From a virus, in IMG/VR virus record IMGVR_UViG_3300048837_000556, positions 1-25,120 of that record: a stretch of 25,120 nt of DNA; one strand, given 5' to 3'. The notes beneath the pieces were generated by a model, which was not told the origin of the DNA, did not search any database, and worked only from the letters and a program-made list of their open reading frames with translations. This document shows, one piece after another, positions 9,565 to 23,646 of the stretch; within the stretch, counting starts at the first letter, position 1; every line of letters begins with the position of its first letter. The position numbers were made by a program, and so were the translations under genes.

Positions 9565-9891
9565 GTGGGGGTCGAGAGCGCTGCCGATCGCCGGGCTTTT
9601 CTGGCAACGGAGGGCTTCGGCACGGTGGCGCTCTATCAGCCTTCAAACGGGCTCGAGCGCGCGATCACCGGCATCTTCGATGATGCGCATCTCGTATCAT
9701 CGGGATCCGAGGCGGGCGTTGCCGGCACCGCGCCGGTGTTTACCTGCACGGCCGATGATCTCGCGCTGCTGTCGCTCGGCAAGGCCGTTTACGACGACCA
9801 GATGGTGATCGATGACGACATCTATCTGGTGAAGCAGATCCAGCCCGATGGCACCGGCATGGTGATGCTGTTGCTCGAGAAGCAGTCATGA
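9565..9891 (+). CDS. Head-tail connector, lambda FII-like
   Basis: This 108-aa protein starts at GTG 9565, with AAGGG upstream, five bases after the previous stop. The C-terminal half, with APVFTCTADDLALLSLGKAV and then QIQPDGTGMVMLLLEK, resembles the lambda FII/Phage_attach family. Those proteins complete the head and provide the surface to which tails join. The segment order, with a beta strand of 'VFTCTADD' type followed by a 'PDGTG' turn, supports this. It overlaps the next gene by ATGA. Assignment is from sequence pattern plus synteny with lambda. Confidence 0.75.
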   Translation: MGVESAADRRAFLATEGFGTVALYQPSNGLERAITGIFDDAHLVSSGSEAGVAGTAPVFTCTADDLALLSLGKAVYDDQMVIDDDIYLVKQIQPDGTGMVMLLLEKQS

Positions 9892-10340
9892 CCGCGCATC
9901 TCCGCACGCAAATCCGCCTCGCGGCCGTGGCGGCCGTCGCGGATCTGGCGACCACCGGCGCCAATGTCTTTGCCTCGCGGCGCTATCCGCTGGGCGAGGA
10001 CCAGATCCCGGCCTTGTGCGTCTATACGCTCGAGGAGGATTCCGATGTCATGAACATGGGATCGACGCGCCATCTGCAGCGCGAGCTGCGCCTGGTGGTC
10101 GAGGGTGTCGCAAAAAACAACGATGCGCTTGATGACGTCCTCGATGAAATCGCCACCGAGGTCGAGGTCGCCATGGCGGCAGACGCCAGCCTCGGCGGTC
10201 TGTGCAAGGACTCGGTTCTGGTGCGCACCCAGATCGCGCTGCAGCCCGAAAAGGAAGCGGAGGCCAAGACCGGCTCTGTCGTTCTCACCTATCGCGTCGT
10301 GTACCGCTCCAACAAAGCAAATCCAACATCAACCAACTAA
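9888..10340 (+). CDS. Tail terminator / minor tail protein U-like
   Basis: This 150-aa protein is encoded between the connector and tail tube genes, the place of lambda gpZ/gpU. It has an N-terminal helix (LRTQIRLAAVAAVADLATTG), a central strand around RYPLGEDQIPALCVYTLEED, and a C-terminal strand VVLTYRVVYRS. This matches the alpha/beta pattern of U-like tail terminators, which cap the tail tube and dock to the head. Only one gene is present where lambda has Z and U, so this may be the sole tail-completion protein here. The function is inferred from position and secondary structure. Confidence 0.68.
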   Translation: MTAHLRTQIRLAAVAAVADLATTGANVFASRRYPLGEDQIPALCVYTLEEDSDVMNMGSTRHLQRELRLVVEGVAKNNDALDDVLDEIATEVEVAMAADASLGGLCKDSVLVRTQIALQPEKEAEAKTGSVVLTYRVVYRSNKANPTSTN

Positions 10341-10358: not shown

Positions 10359-10757
10359 ATGGGCACCCATTGGGGCAATGAAGGCCAGGTTAAACTCGGC
10401 GTCAACACCGTTGCCGAGGTCATCGAATTCGAGTTCACCGAGTCGGTCGAGCCGGTCGATGACAGCTCCATGGGCGATACGTCGCGCACGCATATCGTCG
10501 GCTCGGGCCTGAAGGAGTGGAGCGGCAGTTTGACGTGTCATTGGGATGAGTCTGACACCAATGGCCAGGCTACCTTGGTGACCGGCGCGTCTGTCACGCT
10601 GAACCTGTATCCAGAGGGGTCGACGTCTGGCGACACTTATTGGAGTGGCACGGCATCGATTGTCGAGCGCACCCAGACCACCAAGATGGAAGGCGAGACC
10701 ATCCGAGCGACTTTCACCTTTATGGGCAATGGCGCATTAATCAGGAGCACGGTGTAA
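10359..10757 (+). CDS. Major tail tube protein
   Basis: This 132-aa beta-rich protein is encoded immediately upstream of the tail chaperone, the usual tube position. A GAAGGGAT ribosome-binding sequence precedes the ATG. The pattern begins with a short exposed N-terminus (WGNEGQVKLGVNTVAEV), then EFEFTESVEPVDDSSMGDTS. It ends with a C-terminal TIRATFTFMGNGALI strand. This is typical of small phage tail tube proteins that stack as hexameric rings. Its length is near that of many siphovirus tube proteins lacking the extra Ig-like domain of lambda gpV. No additional C-terminal domain is present. Confidence 0.78.
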   Translation: MGTHWGNEGQVKLGVNTVAEVIEFEFTESVEPVDDSSMGDTSRTHIVGSGLKEWSGSLTCHWDESDTNGQATLVTGASVTLNLYPEGSTSGDTYWSGTASIVERTQTTKMEGETIRATFTFMGNGALIRSTV

Positions 10758-10759
10758 TC

Positions 10760-11116
10760 ATGATCGTTCTCGAGCGCGCCATCGCGCATTATCAGGCCCA
10801 GGGCACCGGCTCGATCGATGTTCCCGAATGGGGCGAGCCGGGCAAGCCCTTGCGGGTGTTCTTCAAGGTGCCGAACGGCTCGACCGTCGAGCAGCTGCTC
10901 GATCTCTCCAAGGGCCGCAACATCGAATACTCGGCGCGGCTGGTGGCAAAGTGCAGCCTCGATGAGTCGGGCGAGCGCATGTTCAAGGATGCCGATTACA
11001 AGGATCTGATGATCCGCGTGCATCCGAGCGTGGTCGGCTCCATTGCCAAGGCGATTGCCGACAATGCAAAGCTCGATATGTCGCACGCGGCACAGGCAGA
11101 AGCCGAGGGAAACTGA
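10760..11116 (+). CDS. Tail assembly chaperone (gpG-like), zero-frame product
   Basis: This 118-aa protein starts two bases after the tail tube stop. Its domain runs from MIVLERAIAHYQAQ through a strand-rich part (VFFKVPNGSTVEQLLDL) to a helical C-terminus. It occupies the lambda G position between tube and tape measure. Such chaperones coat the tape measure protein while the tail tube assembles. The last codons read GAG GGA AAC TGA and hold the slippery heptamer GGGAAAC in the correct phase for a -1 shift. The zero-frame protein is thus the major product, with a longer fusion expected as the minor one. Confidence 0.85.
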   Translation: MIVLERAIAHYQAQGTGSIDVPEWGEPGKPLRVFFKVPNGSTVEQLLDLSKGRNIEYSARLVAKCSLDESGERMFKDADYKDLMIRVHPSVVGSIAKAIADNAKLDMSHAAQAEAEGN

Positions 11117-11256
11117 AGGCCGATCCGCAGCGGCTGTTTCTGTTCCAGCTCGCGGATCGGCTTCATAAGACGGTTGAAGAGATCAACCAGCTGCCCTTTG
11201 CCGAGTTGCAGGGGTGGCTGGGATATCTGCGATGGCTTCATAACCAGAAGAGTTGA
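10760..11256 (+). CDS. Tail assembly chaperone G-T fusion made by -1 ribosomal frameshift
   Basis: Ribosomes that slip back one base at GGGAAAC (11107-11113) read on for 47 codons and stop at TGA 11254-11256. This gives a 165-aa G-T fusion; the join is after AAC at 11113, which is read twice at its last base. The extra segment reads LKADPQRLFLFQLADRLHKT followed by VEEINQLPFAELQGWLGYLR. That resembles lambda gpT-like tails, with a short helix and an ELxGWLxYLR-type end. A 10-bp perfect stem begins 5 bases after the slip site. The stop overlaps the tape measure start as ATGA, which supports the extension being a true gene part. The minor GT protein normally contacts the tape measure or tube subunits. 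Confidence 0.85.
11107..11164 (+). promoter_or_regulatory. -1 programmed frameshift signal
   Basis: The slippery heptamer G GGA AAC lies in the phase X XXY YYZ. It is followed by the zero-frame stop TGA at 11114-11116. An inverted repeat then pairs GCCGATCCGC (11119-11128) with GCGGATCGGC (11152-11161) around a 23-base loop. It can be extended by an A-U and a G-U pair to start at 11117. Weak pairing inside the loop is possible. Spacing and phase match a classical stimulatory hairpin. Confidence 0.85.
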
Positions 11257-13160
11257 TGATGGCTACAACCACCAGGCTTGGCGTCGATATCGTCGGCCGC
11301 GACAAGACCGGCGCGGCCTTCTCATCGGTGCAGCGCCAGATCCAGGGGCTCGGCCGTGCGGCCGGCGTCATGAAGGGCTTGTTCGCCGGCGCGGCCGCGG
11401 GGCTGGGCCTGGCGTCGCTCAACAATGCGTTGCAGTCCTCGATCACGCATATGGACGATCTCGGCAAGTCGGCGCAGAAGATCGGCATTCCGGTCGAGGA
11501 ATTGTCGAAGCTGGAGTATGCCGCGCGCCTGGCCGATGTGCCGCTGGCAGGCCTCGAGGGCAGCATCAAAAAGCTGTCAAAGGCCATGGGCGAGCTGGCG
11601 GGCGGCGGCGAGAATGATGCGGGCGAGGCCTTCAGGGCCCTGGGCATTCAAGTCACGGCCGCCAATGGCCAGTTGCGGCCGACCAGCGCCATCATGGCCG
11701 ATGTCGCGGAGAAATTCGCCGGCATGCAGGATGGCGCGGCCAAGACCGCGCTGGCCATGGCCTTGTTCGGCCGTGCCGGGGCCGACATGATCCCGTTGCT
11801 CAATGGTGGCCGCGAGGCCATTGCCGGAGCCGCGGCCGAGCTGGCGCAGTTCGGTGGCGTGGTGACGCCGGAAGCGGCGAAGCAAGCGGAAGAGTTCAAC
11901 GACAACCTGACGCGGCTGAAGGCGGCCGGCGAGGGCCTGGCGCAGCAGGTCGCGGTGCAGCTCTTGCCCTCGATGGTCGAGCTGACGAATGCCATGGTCG
12001 AGTTTGCCAAGGATGGCGATGTCGCCAAGAGCGTTGCCGATGGTATTGCCGGCACCTTCCGCTTCGCGGCCGAGGGCGCGATCTTCCTGTCGCAGGCGGT
12101 ATTCGAGGTCGGCACGCTCATCGGCATCCTGAATGAGAATTTCACCAAGGCCGATGGCCTGGCCGCCGGGCTCGATCGCTGGCGCGCCGGCTTTGCGGCG
12201 ATCGAGGCGGCGGCGTCCAAGGCCGAGCAGAAGATCTATGAATTGCGCGGCGTCGCCGATCCCACCGGATCCCTGGCCTCGATCGATGCCATGTTCGGCA
12301 CGGCCGGAGGCAAGACCGACCGCGAGCCGGTGAAGGCCAAGGCGGAAGCGCCTTTCATGCTGGCGAAGATCAAGACCGGGGCGGATGAGGCGGCCCAGGC
12401 GTTTGACAAGCTGAAGGCGGCCGGCCAGTCGGTCTGGGAGCAAACCCGCACGCCGCTCGAGGCCTATCAGCTCGAGATCCGCAATCTGAACGAAATGCTG
12501 GGCGCCGGCGTCATCGACCATGAAACCTATGGCCGGGCGGTGACCGCGCTGCAGGATAGTTTTGCCGAGGCCCAGCCCGCGGCCGAGGATTTCCGCCAGA
12601 CCATGGCGGATCTGGTCAGTTCCGGAATCAATCAGGTGTTCGAGGCCCTGGGCGGCCTGGCCGATGGCACCATGAAGGCGGGCGATGCCTTCGCCAGCTT
12701 CCGCGACAGCGCCGTCTCGGCGCTGAAGGACATCGCAAAGGAGCTGCTCAACTCGACCTTGATGAATTTCATCGGCGGGGCGGGCGGCGTGGCGCCGAGC
12801 CAGCAGGGCGGCGGCATCATGAGCCTGTTTGCCGGCTTCTTTGCCGGTGGCGGCCGCCTGGGCGCGGGCAAATGGGGGATTGCGGGCGAGAACGGTGCCG
12901 AGCCTGTCATGGGCCCGGCGCGCATCGTTTCCAACCGCGATATGATGGCGGGCCGCGGCGGCGGCGATGTCAAGATCCGGAATCAAATCATCAACATGAA
13001 CGGCTCCCAAGTCGAAACCCAGACCGAGCGCGGGGCCGATGGCGGGATCAACATCAAGACCATCGTGCGGGGCGAGGTGCTCGAAACCCTGGGCGGCCAG
13101 TCTGGCGCCAAGATGCTCGGCGGCCGTTATGGCGCCCGCGTGAAACCGAGGCGCTCATGA
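11256..13160 (+). CDS. Tape measure protein
   Basis: This 634-aa protein sets tail length and is ejected with the DNA. The start is ATG 11256, which overlaps the chaperone-fusion stop; the next codon is also ATG. The N-terminus LGVDIVGRDKTGAAFSSVQR is typical of phage tape measures. It is followed by an alanine/glycine-rich segment of 25-30 residues that could cross a membrane. Long helical stretches follow (about residues 60-230 and 300-470), including a MDDLGKSAQKIGIPVEELSK motif common to these proteins. The C-terminal part has a FFAGGGRLGAGKWGIAGENG motif. Lambda H is 853 aa, so this tail is predicted to be clearly shorter. No peptidase domain was seen. Confidence 0.9.
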   Translation: MMATTTRLGVDIVGRDKTGAAFSSVQRQIQGLGRAAGVMKGLFAGAAAGLGLASLNNALQSSITHMDDLGKSAQKIGIPVEELSKLEYAARLADVPLAGLEGSIKKLSKAMGELAGGGENDAGEAFRALGIQVTAANGQLRPTSAIMADVAEKFAGMQDGAAKTALAMALFGRAGADMIPLLNGGREAIAGAAAELAQFGGVVTPEAAKQAEEFNDNLTRLKAAGEGLAQQVAVQLLPSMVELTNAMVEFAKDGDVAKSVADGIAGTFRFAAEGAIFLSQAVFEVGTLIGILNENFTKADGLAAGLDRWRAGFAAIEAAASKAEQKIYELRGVADPTGSLASIDAMFGTAGGKTDREPVKAKAEAPFMLAKIKTGADEAAQAFDKLKAAGQSVWEQTRTPLEAYQLEIRNLNEMLGAGVIDHETYGRAVTALQDSFAEAQPAAEDFRQTMADLVSSGINQVFEALGGLADGTMKAGDAFASFRDSAVSALKDIAKELLNSTLMNFIGGAGGVAPSQQGGGIMSLFAGFFAGGGRLGAGKWGIAGENGAEPVMGPARIVSNRDMMAGRGGGDVKIRNQIINMNGSQVETQTERGADGGINIKTIVRGEVLETLGGQSGAKMLGGRYGARVKPRRS

Positions 13161-19070: not shown

Positions 19071-21300
19071 GTGGCGCTCGCCTCTTGATGGCCTGCGCTC
19101 ACCGCTGGGGGTGAGGCGCGGCGTCAGCATCCTCAGTCTTTCCGCGGCACTGCTCGCGGCCGAAGCATCGGGCCTGGCTTGGGTCACCAACGACGAGGCC
19201 GTGAGCAAATATGGTTCCATTACAATCAAGGATGCCGGCAATCCTTCAAACAATTATTCGGGGGCTCCCTTCGATTTCGAGGGCGGCAAGCTCGTTCACT
19301 CGCGTGGCAGCAATGCGATGGAGCTGGGCGCGGACGGGCTGTGGAAGTATGCACCGCACAATCTGATCTTTCAGTCGCAGACGCTGAACACGACTTGGAC
19401 AAAAACCAACGTCACTGTCACTGAGGACCAGATCAACGCACCGAACGGAACGCTCACCGCCGACAAGGTCGAAGCCGCGTCATCCACCAATACCACATTC
19501 AGCCAGCCCGCACTGGGTGCCGGAATAAACGGCATCTACGCCGCGATCTATATCAAGCAGGGGTCCGGCGCGACGGAGGCTAACAGGTTCCGCATTCGCA
19601 ATAACACGACTGCGACCGACATTGCTCGCGGGACATTCGACTACAGCACACAAGCTATTACCTATACGACTGGTTCATCTGGCGTCACACTGACACGGGA
19701 CGAAGACGGTTGGTTGCTGCTTGCATATGAAGGTTCGACCGGATGGTCGCTTGGCGATCAAATTGTTTTCTATGTCGGATTTGACGGCACCGCCGAAACT
19801 GCCGGCGAGTTCTTCTACGGTTGGGGTGCTTTGGTCTGCGCCCTTCCCGTGCTCTCTAAAAATTACATCACCGACAACCTCGTCACCACCACCGGAGCTG
19901 TCTATCGCCCGAAGATCTATCGCGATCCCGTCACGCTGCTGAACCCGCGCTACTGGCCCGAGCCGCAGGCGATGAATCGCAACCCGTGGAGCGACGATCT
20001 CACGAATGCGGCGTGGGTGAAAGTCAATGCAACCGCGGCGAAGACGGCGACCGGCATCGGCGGTTTGGCGAATAGTGCCTCGACGCTCACGGCGACGGCA
20101 GCCAATGGGTATGCGCGACTTGATATTACCGCGGCGTCCTCACTGGGTATCACCTCGACGTTCATGAAGCGGCGCACCGGATCTGGTCCGGTCACGATGG
20201 CACAGGGAGAACAGACCGGCAGTGAGATTGTCACGAACGGCGACTTTGCTACAGACATTTCAAGCTGGACGCCCGGCATGTTGGGGGCGGCTACTGCCGC
20301 AACTTGGGATGCCACTGGCAAGCTGGCGATCTCTCGGGCGACAGGGGCAAACTACAGCTTTGCCACCCAGACATTGTCGCTCACTGTAGGAAAACTATAC
20401 AGCATCACGTTCACGGCCACGACGCAGGTCGGTTGTGAAATCGGGTCTGTCATTTTCCCAACTGCTGGTGACATGCTCACAGGAGTTACTGCCAATAATG
20501 CGACAAGAACCTTTTTCTTCACCGCAACGGCAGCGACCGCGTATCTCACATTTTTCGAGAGCACTCAAAGTGCCACAGGAACAGTCGATAATGTCTCGGT
20601 AAAAGAGATCGTCGAAACCACTCTCACATTGACGAGCAACTGGACGCGCGTGAACACGCCGGCCGCAACGATCACCAATCCCTCGATCATCATCAAGCTG
20701 GCGACGAGCGGCGATGCCATCGACGTGCAGGTGGTTCAGAACGAAGCGGGCGGTGTGGTGACGAGTCCGATCCCGACGGCCGGCGCTTCGGTGACGCGGC
20801 TGGCGGATATCGTGAGCATCGCCAACACGCTCTGGCCGAACCAGGACGCGGCGATGGCGTATTATGCAAAGTATGTGGCGAACTTCGTAGATGATGCTCT
20901 GGCGCTACAATATTGCGTTTTTGAAAACGCTAATGCTTCTAACGAATATGTCAGGCTCCAGAGCACAACTCAAACATCAAGAACGGGTCGAAGCCTTTTC
21001 TCTGTTCGTGACAGCGTGGGTGGAACTGTAAATGTGGAAAGCTCAACAGACAACCTTGTGCCAAGTGGAGCAGAGTTTGAAGTTCGAGCGACCTATGACG
21101 CGAGCGGACAAGCGCACTCCATCAACGGGGCTGCAGTGATAATCGGGGCCGTACCCGCGACGTTGCCAACATGCAACACGCTTTACCTTGGGTCTGGCGG
21201 GCCATTTGCACTTAGCCATATCAATGGCCCGCTCGAAATCTTCGCCGCCGCTCCCCGTCGCGTCGTCAATGGCGACCTTCCCACATGGTTAGCAGCATGA
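19063..21300 (+). CDS. Long multi-module tail fibre/receptor-binding protein
   Basis: This 745-aa protein begins in an overlap with the preceding gene. Residues about 1-105 form an attachment region (MLEWRSPLDGLRSPLGVRRG). Residues about 105-270 look like a carbohydrate-binding-module-type beta-sandwich (NLIFQSQTLNTTWTKTNVTV to EFFYGWGALV). A second similar module begins near 310 (NPWSDDLTNAAWVKVNATAA) and finishes after 519 (TLTLTSNWTRV to GGVVTSPIPTAGASVTRLAD). Between its halves, about 384-518, lies a different module that starts IVTNGDFATDISSWTPG and ends GTVDNVSVKEI. The C-terminal 170 residues resemble a concanavalin-like fold around ATYDASGQAHSINGAAVIIG. The DNA is less GC-rich and less biased than the head genes. 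Host receptor binding is inferred. Confidence 0.8.
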   Translation: MLEWRSPLDGLRSPLGVRRGVSILSLSAALLAAEASGLAWVTNDEAVSKYGSITIKDAGNPSNNYSGAPFDFEGGKLVHSRGSNAMELGADGLWKYAPHNLIFQSQTLNTTWTKTNVTVTEDQINAPNGTLTADKVEAASSTNTTFSQPALGAGINGIYAAIYIKQGSGATEANRFRIRNNTTATDIARGTFDYSTQAITYTTGSSGVTLTRDEDGWLLLAYEGSTGWSLGDQIVFYVGFDGTAETAGEFFYGWGALVCALPVLSKNYITDNLVTTTGAVYRPKIYRDPVTLLNPRYWPEPQAMNRNPWSDDLTNAAWVKVNATAAKTATGIGGLANSASTLTATAANGYARLDITAASSLGITSTFMKRRTGSGPVTMAQGEQTGSEIVTNGDFATDISSWTPGMLGAATAATWDATGKLAISRATGANYSFATQTLSLTVGKLYSITFTATTQVGCEIGSVIFPTAGDMLTGVTANNATRTFFFTATAATAYLTFFESTQSATGTVDNVSVKEIVETTLTLTSNWTRVNTPAATITNPSIIIKLATSGDAIDVQVVQNEAGGVVTSPIPTAGASVTRLADIVSIANTLWPNQDAAMAYYAKYVANFVDDALALQYCVFENANASNEYVRLQSTTQTSRTGRSLFSVRDSVGGTVNVESSTDNLVPSGAEFEVRATYDASGQAHSINGAAVIIGAVPATLPTCNTLYLGSGGPFALSHINGPLEIFAAAPRRVVNGDLPTWLAA

Positions 21301-21770
21301 TCGAAATTCTTGCACATTGCGCATCGCGCGAAGATTTTGTGAAGGGCATGACCACCACCCATCTGCCCGATGGCTCAACTCTCTGCACACTCGACGGCGA
21401 GCGCCTCGTTCCGGCGCCCGGCGTGGTCATCATCGAGATCGGTGAAATCACCAAGCCGCTGAAGGACGAGAAGGGAAACATCTTCTTGAACGAAGACGGC
21501 TCGATCCAAACCAAGACCATCGGCGGCTTTCACGTGAACCTTTGCGCCATGGGGCCGCTTGAGGCAATGCTCACGGCGGGTCTTGAGCAGTACGACAAAG
21601 AGGGCAATCTCAAATCTGTTTTTGAACGCACGCACATCCTGGCTCTCATACCAGGCATGAAGTTTGCGCCGATCACGGAGGAGGGAGTGCCCGATGGCTA
21701 CGAGGGGCCAAACGGAGTCCGTCTGTTCGATCCCGCTGCCGTCAAGAATCGCGCTTCCGTGATTATGTGA
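21297..21770 (+). CDS. Conserved-looking protein downstream of the fibre gene, unknown
   Basis: This 157-aa protein starts at ATG 21297, overlapping the fibre stop; an in-frame ATG at 21285 is an alternative. It contains IEILAHCASREDFVKGMTTT, a middle segment GEITKPLKDEKGNIFLNEDG, and a long C-terminal part with no low complexity. No membrane segment or enzymatic motif is obvious. Its position directly after the receptor-binding fibre, in the same compositionally distinct block, suggests a fibre chaperone or an additional tip component. I do not recognise the family. It is separated from the next gene by 46 bases. Confidence 0.62.
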   Translation: MIEILAHCASREDFVKGMTTTHLPDGSTLCTLDGERLVPAPGVVIIEIGEITKPLKDEKGNIFLNEDGSIQTKTIGGFHVNLCAMGPLEAMLTAGLEQYDKEGNLKSVFERTHILALIPGMKFAPITEEGVPDGYEGPNGVRLFDPAAVKNRASVIM

Positions 21771-22497: not shown

Positions 22498-22962
22498 ATG
22501 TCCAGTCGCATGAAGAAGAGCGGCGCCTTGACCGCGGCGATCATCGCCCTGGTCGCGGGCTTCGAGGGGTTGCGCACCTATGCCTACCGCGATCCGGTCG
22601 GGATCCCGACCATCTGTTATGGCGAAACCCGCGGCGTGAAGATCGGCGACAAGGCCACCAAGGCGGAGTGTGAGCGCATGCTGGGCGCGAGGCTTCTCGA
22701 ATTCGAGGCCGGCGTGCGGGCGTGCTTGCGGGCGCCCGATCGGTTGCCCGATGGCACCTATGCCGCGGTGCTGTCGTTTTCCTACAATGTCGGTATTGGC
22801 GCCTTCTGCAAATCCACCATGCGGCGGAAACTCGATGGCGGCGATATCCGCGGCGCCTGCAACGAGCTGCTCAAATGGACCAATGCGCGCGGCTTCAGGC
22901 TTCCGGGCTTGGTGAAGCGCCGGCAGCTCGAGCGCGAGCTTTGCCTGAAGGGCACGATATGA
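22498..22962 (+). CDS. Endolysin, GH24 lysozyme, possible signal-anchor-release type
   Basis: This 154-aa muramidase has the catalytic arrangement Glu23-x8-Asp32-x5-Thr38 of T4-like GH24 lysozymes. The surrounding motif reads FEGLRTYAYRDPVGIPTICY, followed by GETRGVKIGD. Residues about 8-22 (SGALTAAIIALVAGF) are weakly hydrophobic, Ala/Gly-rich and immediately precede the catalytic Glu. This resembles signal-anchor-release endolysins such as P21 R. The segment is short compared with the classic case, so the enzyme may instead be soluble. An AGGAGAG ribosome-binding sequence overlaps the holin stop. The enzyme cleaves the glycan strand of peptidoglycan at the end of infection. It overlaps Rz by ATGA. 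Confidence 0.88.
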   Translation: MSSRMKKSGALTAAIIALVAGFEGLRTYAYRDPVGIPTICYGETRGVKIGDKATKAECERMLGARLLEFEAGVRACLRAPDRLPDGTYAAVLSFSYNVGIGAFCKSTMRRKLDGGDIRGACNELLKWTNARGFRLPGLVKRRQLERELCLKGTI

Positions 22963-23342
22963 GGATCCTGGCGGCGATCTTCGCATCGCTCATCGGGTCG
23001 CCCTGGGTTCTGGCCGCCGCGGCCGCGGCCGTGCTGGGATCTTACGTCTATGTCTATACTTGGGGCTACGGCGATGCGGCGGCCAAATGCCGGGAGGCGG
23101 AGTTGCGCGCGACCATCGCCAGCCTCGAGCGCGATCTCCAACGGCAGCGGATCGCCGATTCCTACCGCGATGCTTACGTCGCCTGGCTGCAGAGCGGCTA
23201 CCTGGCCGAGTTGAAAAAGGAGAGGGACGACTATGTGGTCGAAATCGAAGAGCGGCCGGCTGTCGAGCGCTGTCCTGCTTATAAGCCTCGTGATGTTGAG
23301 CGGTTGCGCCGGCTTCGGAACCTCAAGGCTCCAGCCGGTTGA
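22959..23342 (+). CDS. Rz-like inner-membrane spanin subunit
   Basis: This 127-aa protein begins in an ATGA overlap with the endolysin. The N-terminal hydrophobic segment (about residues 14-35, VLAAAAAAVLGSYVYVYTWG) is a single membrane anchor. It is followed by a charged helical periplasmic part with LRATIASLERDLQRQRIAD and ELKKERDDYVVEIEERPAVE. This fits an Rz-type i-spanin, which joins the outer-membrane lipoprotein subunit to fuse the two membranes at lysis. The 3' 110 bases also encode the start of the Rz1-like gene in the +1 frame. Two cysteines are present outside the anchor (AAKCREA and ERCPAYK) and may form dimers. Confidence 0.8.
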   Translation: MRILAAIFASLIGSPWVLAAAAAAVLGSYVYVYTWGYGDAAAKCREAELRATIASLERDLQRQRIADSYRDAYVAWLQSGYLAELKKERDDYVVEIEERPAVERCPAYKPRDVERLRRLRNLKAPAG

Positions 23343-23646
23343 TATCGGCGCGCCACCGGTGGTCCTCGAGCCCAGGGTGCCACCGGATCCGGCGGCCGCG
23401 GGCTCGGCCGACATCGATGTCGTGAACCTGTCGGAGGCGGTCGGCATGTGCGAGGTCGACAAGGCCCTGGCGCGCCGGCAATGGGGCGATCTCCGCCGGC
23501 TCTATCTCGGTGTCGCGCCAATGGCGGCCGCCGGCGGGCCACGCCTGCAGGGGCTGGCAGAGCCCGGTTTCCCGCTATGCGAGGGCGAAGCGCCGGCGTT
23601 AGCCGCTGGCGGGCCCTCCAAAGCCCGGCAATCGGCAAAGCCGTAA
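23233..23646 (+). CDS. Rz1-like outer-membrane lipoprotein spanin, overlapping Rz
   Basis: This frame starts inside Rz, with AAGGAGAG eight bases before ATG 23233. It encodes a signal sequence ending in a lipobox LSGC, with Cys25 as the lipid-modified residue. The proline-rich stretch PVDIGAPPVVLEPRVPPDP follows, as in Rz1 o-spanins. The full length of 137 aa is unusual: lambda Rz1 is only 60 aa. The last 60 or so residues are Ala/Gly/Pro-rich and may be a periplasmic extension or poorly conserved. The overlap with Rz is 110 bases, giving a partly overlapping rather than nested gene pair. Confidence 0.78.
   Translation: MWSKSKSGRLSSAVLLISLVMLSGCAGFGTSRLQPVDIGAPPVVLEPRVPPDPAAAGSADIDVVNLSEAVGMCEVDKALARRQWGDLRRLYLGVAPMAAAGGPRLQGLAEPGFPLCEGEAPALAAGGPSKARQSAKP

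Follow-up and report, generated by a model that had tools for sequence, protein, structure and literature searches.

The window analysed here, a 25,120-nucleotide stretch of DNA from an uncultivated tailed phage (IMG/VR record IMGVR_UViG_3300048837_000556, positions 1 to 25,120), carries a block of morphogenesis genes in which a major capsid protein, a head closure protein, a tail terminator and a tube protein lie upstream of the gene called G here and a tape measure gene lies downstream (Table 1). G is located between the major tail protein and the tape measure gene, the position of the lambda-type G/G-T genes, and the gene order at the locus follows lambda V-G-T-H. G matches the tail assembly chaperone family phrog_344 (E=1.7e-8), and a profile of the G family matches the HK97 tail assembly chaperone gp13 (2ob9; E=2.2e-4). 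An AlphaFold model of G (pLDDT 84) was searched with Foldseek, which returned 2ob9 as the best match (prob 1.0) and 3fgx as the next. The PHROG match, the HK97 gp13 profile match and the predicted fold together mark G as a predicted tail assembly chaperone.

Table 1. Features of the G/T locus and its neighbours (positions in the window)
Feature	Position	Strand	Remarks
Tail terminator (gpU-like)	9888..10340	+	phrog_4204, E=9e-25
Major tail (tube) protein	10359..10757	+	phrog_10528, E=7.8e-7; directly upstream of G
G, predicted tail assembly chaperone, zero-frame product	10760..11116	+	118 aa plus TGA
Slippery heptamer G GGA AAC, -1 shift to GGG AAA	11107..11113	+	phase checked
TGA, zero-frame stop of G	11114..11116	+	adjoins heptamer
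T, -1 frame extension	11113..11256	+	47 codons from CTG 11113 plus TGA; C-terminus of predicted G-T only
Candidate stem, 5' arm GCCGATCCGC	11119..11128	+	perfect complement of 11152-11161
Candidate stem, 3' arm GCGGATCGGC	11152..11161	+	pairs with 11119-11128
Tape measure protein	11256..13160	+	phrog_8462, E=1.1e-59

Elsewhere in the window, positions 1-1383 encode a ParB-like N-terminal domain, whose match is slightly below the Pfam cut-off, fused to an N6/N4 DNA methylase; the terminase genes follow directly downstream. A candidate Rz gene (22959-23342) is overlapped in another frame by a gene for an Rz1-like lipoprotein (23233-23646, lipobox-like LVMLSGC), and this candidate pair (22959-23646) lies directly 3' of a phage lysozyme gene (22498-22962). 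No tRNA genes were found in the window.

The last codons of G are GAG GGA AAC TGA, so that the heptamer near its 3' end splits as G|GGA|AAC, precisely the X XXY YYZ phasing of a lambda-type -1 frameshift site. As a bare string GGGAAAC is not rare (4 copies in the window versus 2.1 expected); it is phase and place that set the copy at 11107 apart. Across all genes of the window, 16 of 7,323 codon positions carry an in-phase XXXYYYZ heptamer, five of them with AAA or TTT as YYY, and only the one at 11107 is near a stop. A second in-phase GGGAAAC (21473-21479), within an open reading frame at 21285-21770 and 288 nt ahead of its stop, is probably a chance occurrence.

The -1 frame, which is open from 10966, runs from the heptamer as CTG AAG GCC ... 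CAG AAG AGT to a TGA at 11254-11256 that overlaps the tape measure ATG (11256-11258) by one base; a second in-frame ATG of the tape measure gene is at 11259. The predicted G-T fusion, starting at 10760, is 165 aa long, with the predicted junction peptide ...AEAEGNLKADPQR... and Asn or Lys at the slip codon. The T frame of the window contains no ATG or GTG. Its sole ATG, GTG or TTG codon is the TTG at 11206, past the midpoint of T, and the only potential starts before it are CTGs at 11113, 11134, 11140 and 11191 and an ATC at 11182. The -1 frame is thus open and carries a conserved extension without a start of its own, as in lambda-type G/G-T genes. G-T matches the tail assembly chaperone family phrog_16513 over residues 3-161 (E=6e-10), a profile that is itself one protein covering both G and T, and T by itself matches both phrog_16513 (0.002) and phrog_337 (0.003). 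No Pfam family was found for G or the fusion, and T gave only a sub-threshold match to DUF6396 (E=0.031). An earlier, sequence-only reading of this DNA had placed GGGAAAC in frameshift phase directly ahead of the zero-frame stop, followed by a 47-codon -1 frame whose stop overlaps the tape measure start and by a perfect 10-bp stem 5 nt after the heptamer; the phase was confirmed base for base, and the stop, the frame and the stem are likewise where it had put them.

Relatives with roughly 20-37% G identity were gathered from phage records, IMG/VR contigs and prophages. Single proteins served as queries, the full 10-row alignment being too divergent for a collection scan, and loci that were partial, broken or without T (L052, L060, L061, L082 and L084) were discarded. 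Of 43 distinct relatives in which G and T are intact, about 41 have an XXXYYYZ in phase at the corresponding position, together with a homologous T in the -1 frame; these 41 are not independent events, close kin including L026/L027 and the marine group L004, L008, L038, L041, L042 and L018. The signal is therefore kept in relatives as expected of the lambda G/G-T kind, and the sequence-only reading, which had named a closed second frame or a lost heptamer in homologues as grounds for its rejection, withstood the comparison. GGGAAAC is found in 12 loci (the window, L002, L010, L017, L026, L027, L034, L035, L053, L055, L057 and L059) and AAAAAAC in 24 (L003, L004, L008, L015, L016, L018, L019, L032, L038, L041, L042, L051, L056, L058, L070, L072, L073, L074, L075, L076, L077, L078, L079 and L081). 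Rarer forms are AAAAAAG (L069 and L083), AAAAAAA (L025), AAAAAAT (L071) and CCCAAAA (L080). The distance from the heptamer to the zero-frame stop is 0, 3 or about 21-60 nt, so the two often abut but need not; L010, L026, L055 and L057 have the stop 30-39 nt downstream and nevertheless keep the heptamer in the homologous place. A homologous T is present throughout the relatives, with a core resembling L-x-x-DP...LADRLGKT. In most pairs from the marine group, differences in the T frame fall mostly at the third codon position (for example 4/3/21 for L041 versus L042), showing, as judged from this substitution pattern, that selection acts on the T protein in that group.

Only L009 and L031 among the 43 distinct intact loci are missing a canonical heptamer. 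In L009 (3300-3420, a Nocardia jiangxiensis prophage) homologues of G and T occupy two frames and no XXXYYYZ was found in their overlap. In L031 (2330-2380) G ends in GAGGGGGAGTAATGGGC, and T possesses a separate ATG that overlaps the stop of G (TAATG), preceded by a Shine-Dalgarno-like GAGGGGG run and followed by a strong stem (p=0.002); L031 may use reinitiation or a non-canonical slip. A route by which T is translated alone, through termination-reinitiation or a non-AUG start and with no fusion, may thus exist in the family. For the window, the start codons argue against it: the TTG at 11206 lies beyond the midpoint of T and the early candidates are only CTGs. Separate translation would also leave unexplained both the persistence of an in-phase heptamer in the same place across about 41 of 43 relatives and the fused G-T nature of phrog_16513, and we regard it as very unlikely here.

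The same comparative set bears on two further explanations of the extension. Slippage of RNA polymerase, giving a shifted mRNA rather than a shifted ribosome, could be permitted at the A-rich sites (7-9 A) of L016, L019, L025 and L078, whereas the GGGAAAC of the window has no run above three bases, and ribosomal slippage accords with both the structure downstream and the preserved phase of XXXYYYZ; we consider a transcriptional origin highly improbable. That the bare heptamer is common could suggest a chance heptamer or a sequencing frameshift, with T a broken part of G, but the two-frame layout is common to dozens of unrelated assemblies and isolate genomes, and contig L001 is identical to the window over 3,579 bases. 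The comparative set already refutes this explanation, to which we assign a negligible probability.

The heptamer of the window is followed by a candidate stimulatory structure, a perfect 10-bp stem with a 23-nt loop. Folding of 11107-11170 gives a minimum free energy of -29.4 kcal/mol (z -3.56 relative to dinucleotide shuffles, 1 of 200 shuffles being as stable), and the GC-corrected stability is within the lowest 0.5% of windows. In the minimum-energy fold the stem is lengthened by UGAAG/CUUCA pairing and a smaller hairpin forms inside the loop. By eye, loop bases GCGGCTG (about 11130-11136) could also form a possible pseudoknot with CAGCTGC (about 11189-11195), a pairing that would compete with the hairpin inside the loop. 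Because the stem arms encode the conserved T motifs ADP and ADRL, the T protein was held fixed in a further test, in which synonymous codons were sampled at each locus's own usage. The stem of the window was stronger than 99.8% of such samples (z -3.6, p=0.002), indicating a stable structure a few nucleotides past the heptamer beyond what the coding demands. Synonymous-test p values of about 0.013 or less were also obtained for L002, L003, L017, L031, L032, L034, L056, L058, L059, L072, L076, L078 and L079, and the Fisher combined p over 22 loci, which are non-independent through shared ancestry, is 2.6e-10. By this test no stem signal was detected in the pelagiphage and most marine roseophage loci, in L026, L027 and L053, or in lambda.

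These data leave some room for a real frameshift in which the stem is a non-stimulating by-product of the ADP...ADRL protein motifs. The arms do encode those motifs, pair counts at the fixed register of the window revealed no covariation or compensatory change, and many AAAAAAC relatives, like lambda, are stemless. Against this stand the synonymous-codon results in the window and in a dozen or so relatives, together with their combined value, and the recurrence of the best helices just downstream of the heptamer in relatives, though in different registers. We consider a by-product unlikely, if distinctly less so than the alternatives to the frameshift itself; the stem probably does stimulate slippage, although it is replaceable. 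Its absence from many relatives makes it an aid rather than a defining part of the signal. Of the two elements that the sequence-only reading had proposed for comparison in homologues, the heptamer held, and the stem proved neither universal nor covarying at a fixed register.

Taken together, we conclude that the locus very probably directs a programmed -1 ribosomal frameshift of the lambda G/G-T kind. The proposal of a complete canonical -1 signal yielding a G-T chaperone fusion is thereby upheld on the sequence evidence, since all of its named parts are present and relatives keep the signal. Most ribosomes would read G and stop at the TGA at 11114. A minority, we infer a few percent, probably pausing at the stem (11119-11161) while GGA and AAC occupy the P and A sites, would re-pair one base back on GGG AAA and translate a further 47 codons to give G-T. 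By analogy with lambda, abundant G would coat the tape measure protein, the few G-T molecules would recruit tail tube subunits through T, and both would leave before the tail is mature.

The last base of the heptamer (Z) is C, giving the Asn codon AAC, at 36 of the 41 sites and not the G favoured in E. coli. It is a tentative and rather doubtful suggestion that this chaperone family, across phages of Pseudomonadota, has come to use slip sites of the Asn type (A_AAA_AAC or G_GGA_AAC) rather than Lys AAG; if true, it would suggest that host tRNA decoding or a wanted low efficiency sets Z. The preference for C may simply reflect a low required efficiency or a leucine codon (CTG/CTC) that is conserved early in T. 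A preference specific to alpha phages was considered but looks unlikely, AAAAAAC also dominating the phrog_344 loci of a phylum-wide sample. Because A_AAA_AAC sites are described as slipping far less readily in E. coli than A_AAA_AAG sites (PMC5009743), the efficiency of an AAC-ending site in the real host is uncertain.

The significance of the signal, which was previously unannotated here and whose mechanism has been known since phage lambda, lies mostly in annotation: both products, G and G-T, belong in the record. The two-product annotation that had been advocated is supported by a relative, Rhodobacter phage RcRhea, whose record already gives G-T in the form of a joined CDS. Among the annotated relatives, the first five to be found (phi3LM21, HTVC202P, HTVC026P, vB_DshS-R4C and CRP-811) have G but no fusion in their records. 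Most of the roughly 140-nt T frame is unlabelled in HTVC202P, HTVC026P, vB_DshS-R4C and CRP-811; in phi3LM21, part of it (L015 3396-3506; MF614628.1 25743-25853) is listed as a hypothetical protein in its own right, p41. With stems present or absent and stops at 0 to 60 nt, the family forms a natural series for measuring each element of -1 frameshifting outside E. coli.

The best-known counterpart is the lambda G/G-T programmed -1 frameshift (Levin 1993; Xu 2004, 2013, 2014, as cited in PMC5009743), where, in lambda work reviewed there, G forms a coat on the tape measure and T brings in the tube protein. Lambda shares the order tube-G-T-tape measure, a heptamer near the end of G, a T made only as an extension of G and a GGGAAA core. 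Its heptamer, checked directly in NC_001416, is GGGAAAG, ending in G; lambda T is about 144 codons versus 47 here, and no strong or comparable stem is present, whereas a stem follows the heptamer in the window. The earlier reading had likewise given GGGAAAG for lambda; the zero-frame stop, which adjoins the heptamer in the window, is 15 nt further on in lambda. The Rhodobacter phages RcRhea, RcCronus and RcSaxon have related G and T proteins and GGGAAAC directly before TGA, with G at about 24% identity to the window and a weaker downstream structure; the publication on the RcRhea genome records a -1 translational frameshift (PMC4882933). Burkholderia phage KL1 gp18/gp19 has GGGAAAC immediately 5' of TGA and a predicted downstream stem-loop (PMC3483164), but a longer T and one gene between chaperone and tape measure. 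In Caulobacter phages, GGGAAAC (Colossus) and AAAAAAC (phiCbK group) occur in a chaperone pair ahead of the tape measure (PMC3556154); these two heptamers are also the main ones of the present family, and the Caulobacter phage tape measures are about 2,000 aa. Phage Loki has a predicted AAAAAAC site beside the stop (PMC5313236), and haloarchaeal HCTV-1 and HCTV-2 use GGGAAAC and AAAAAAC (PMC5009743). HK97 gp13 resembles G in profile and as the top fold match (TM 0.64-0.70) at 16% identity, and in an HK97-like chaperone cluster 6-7% frameshifting has been measured (PMC3711429).
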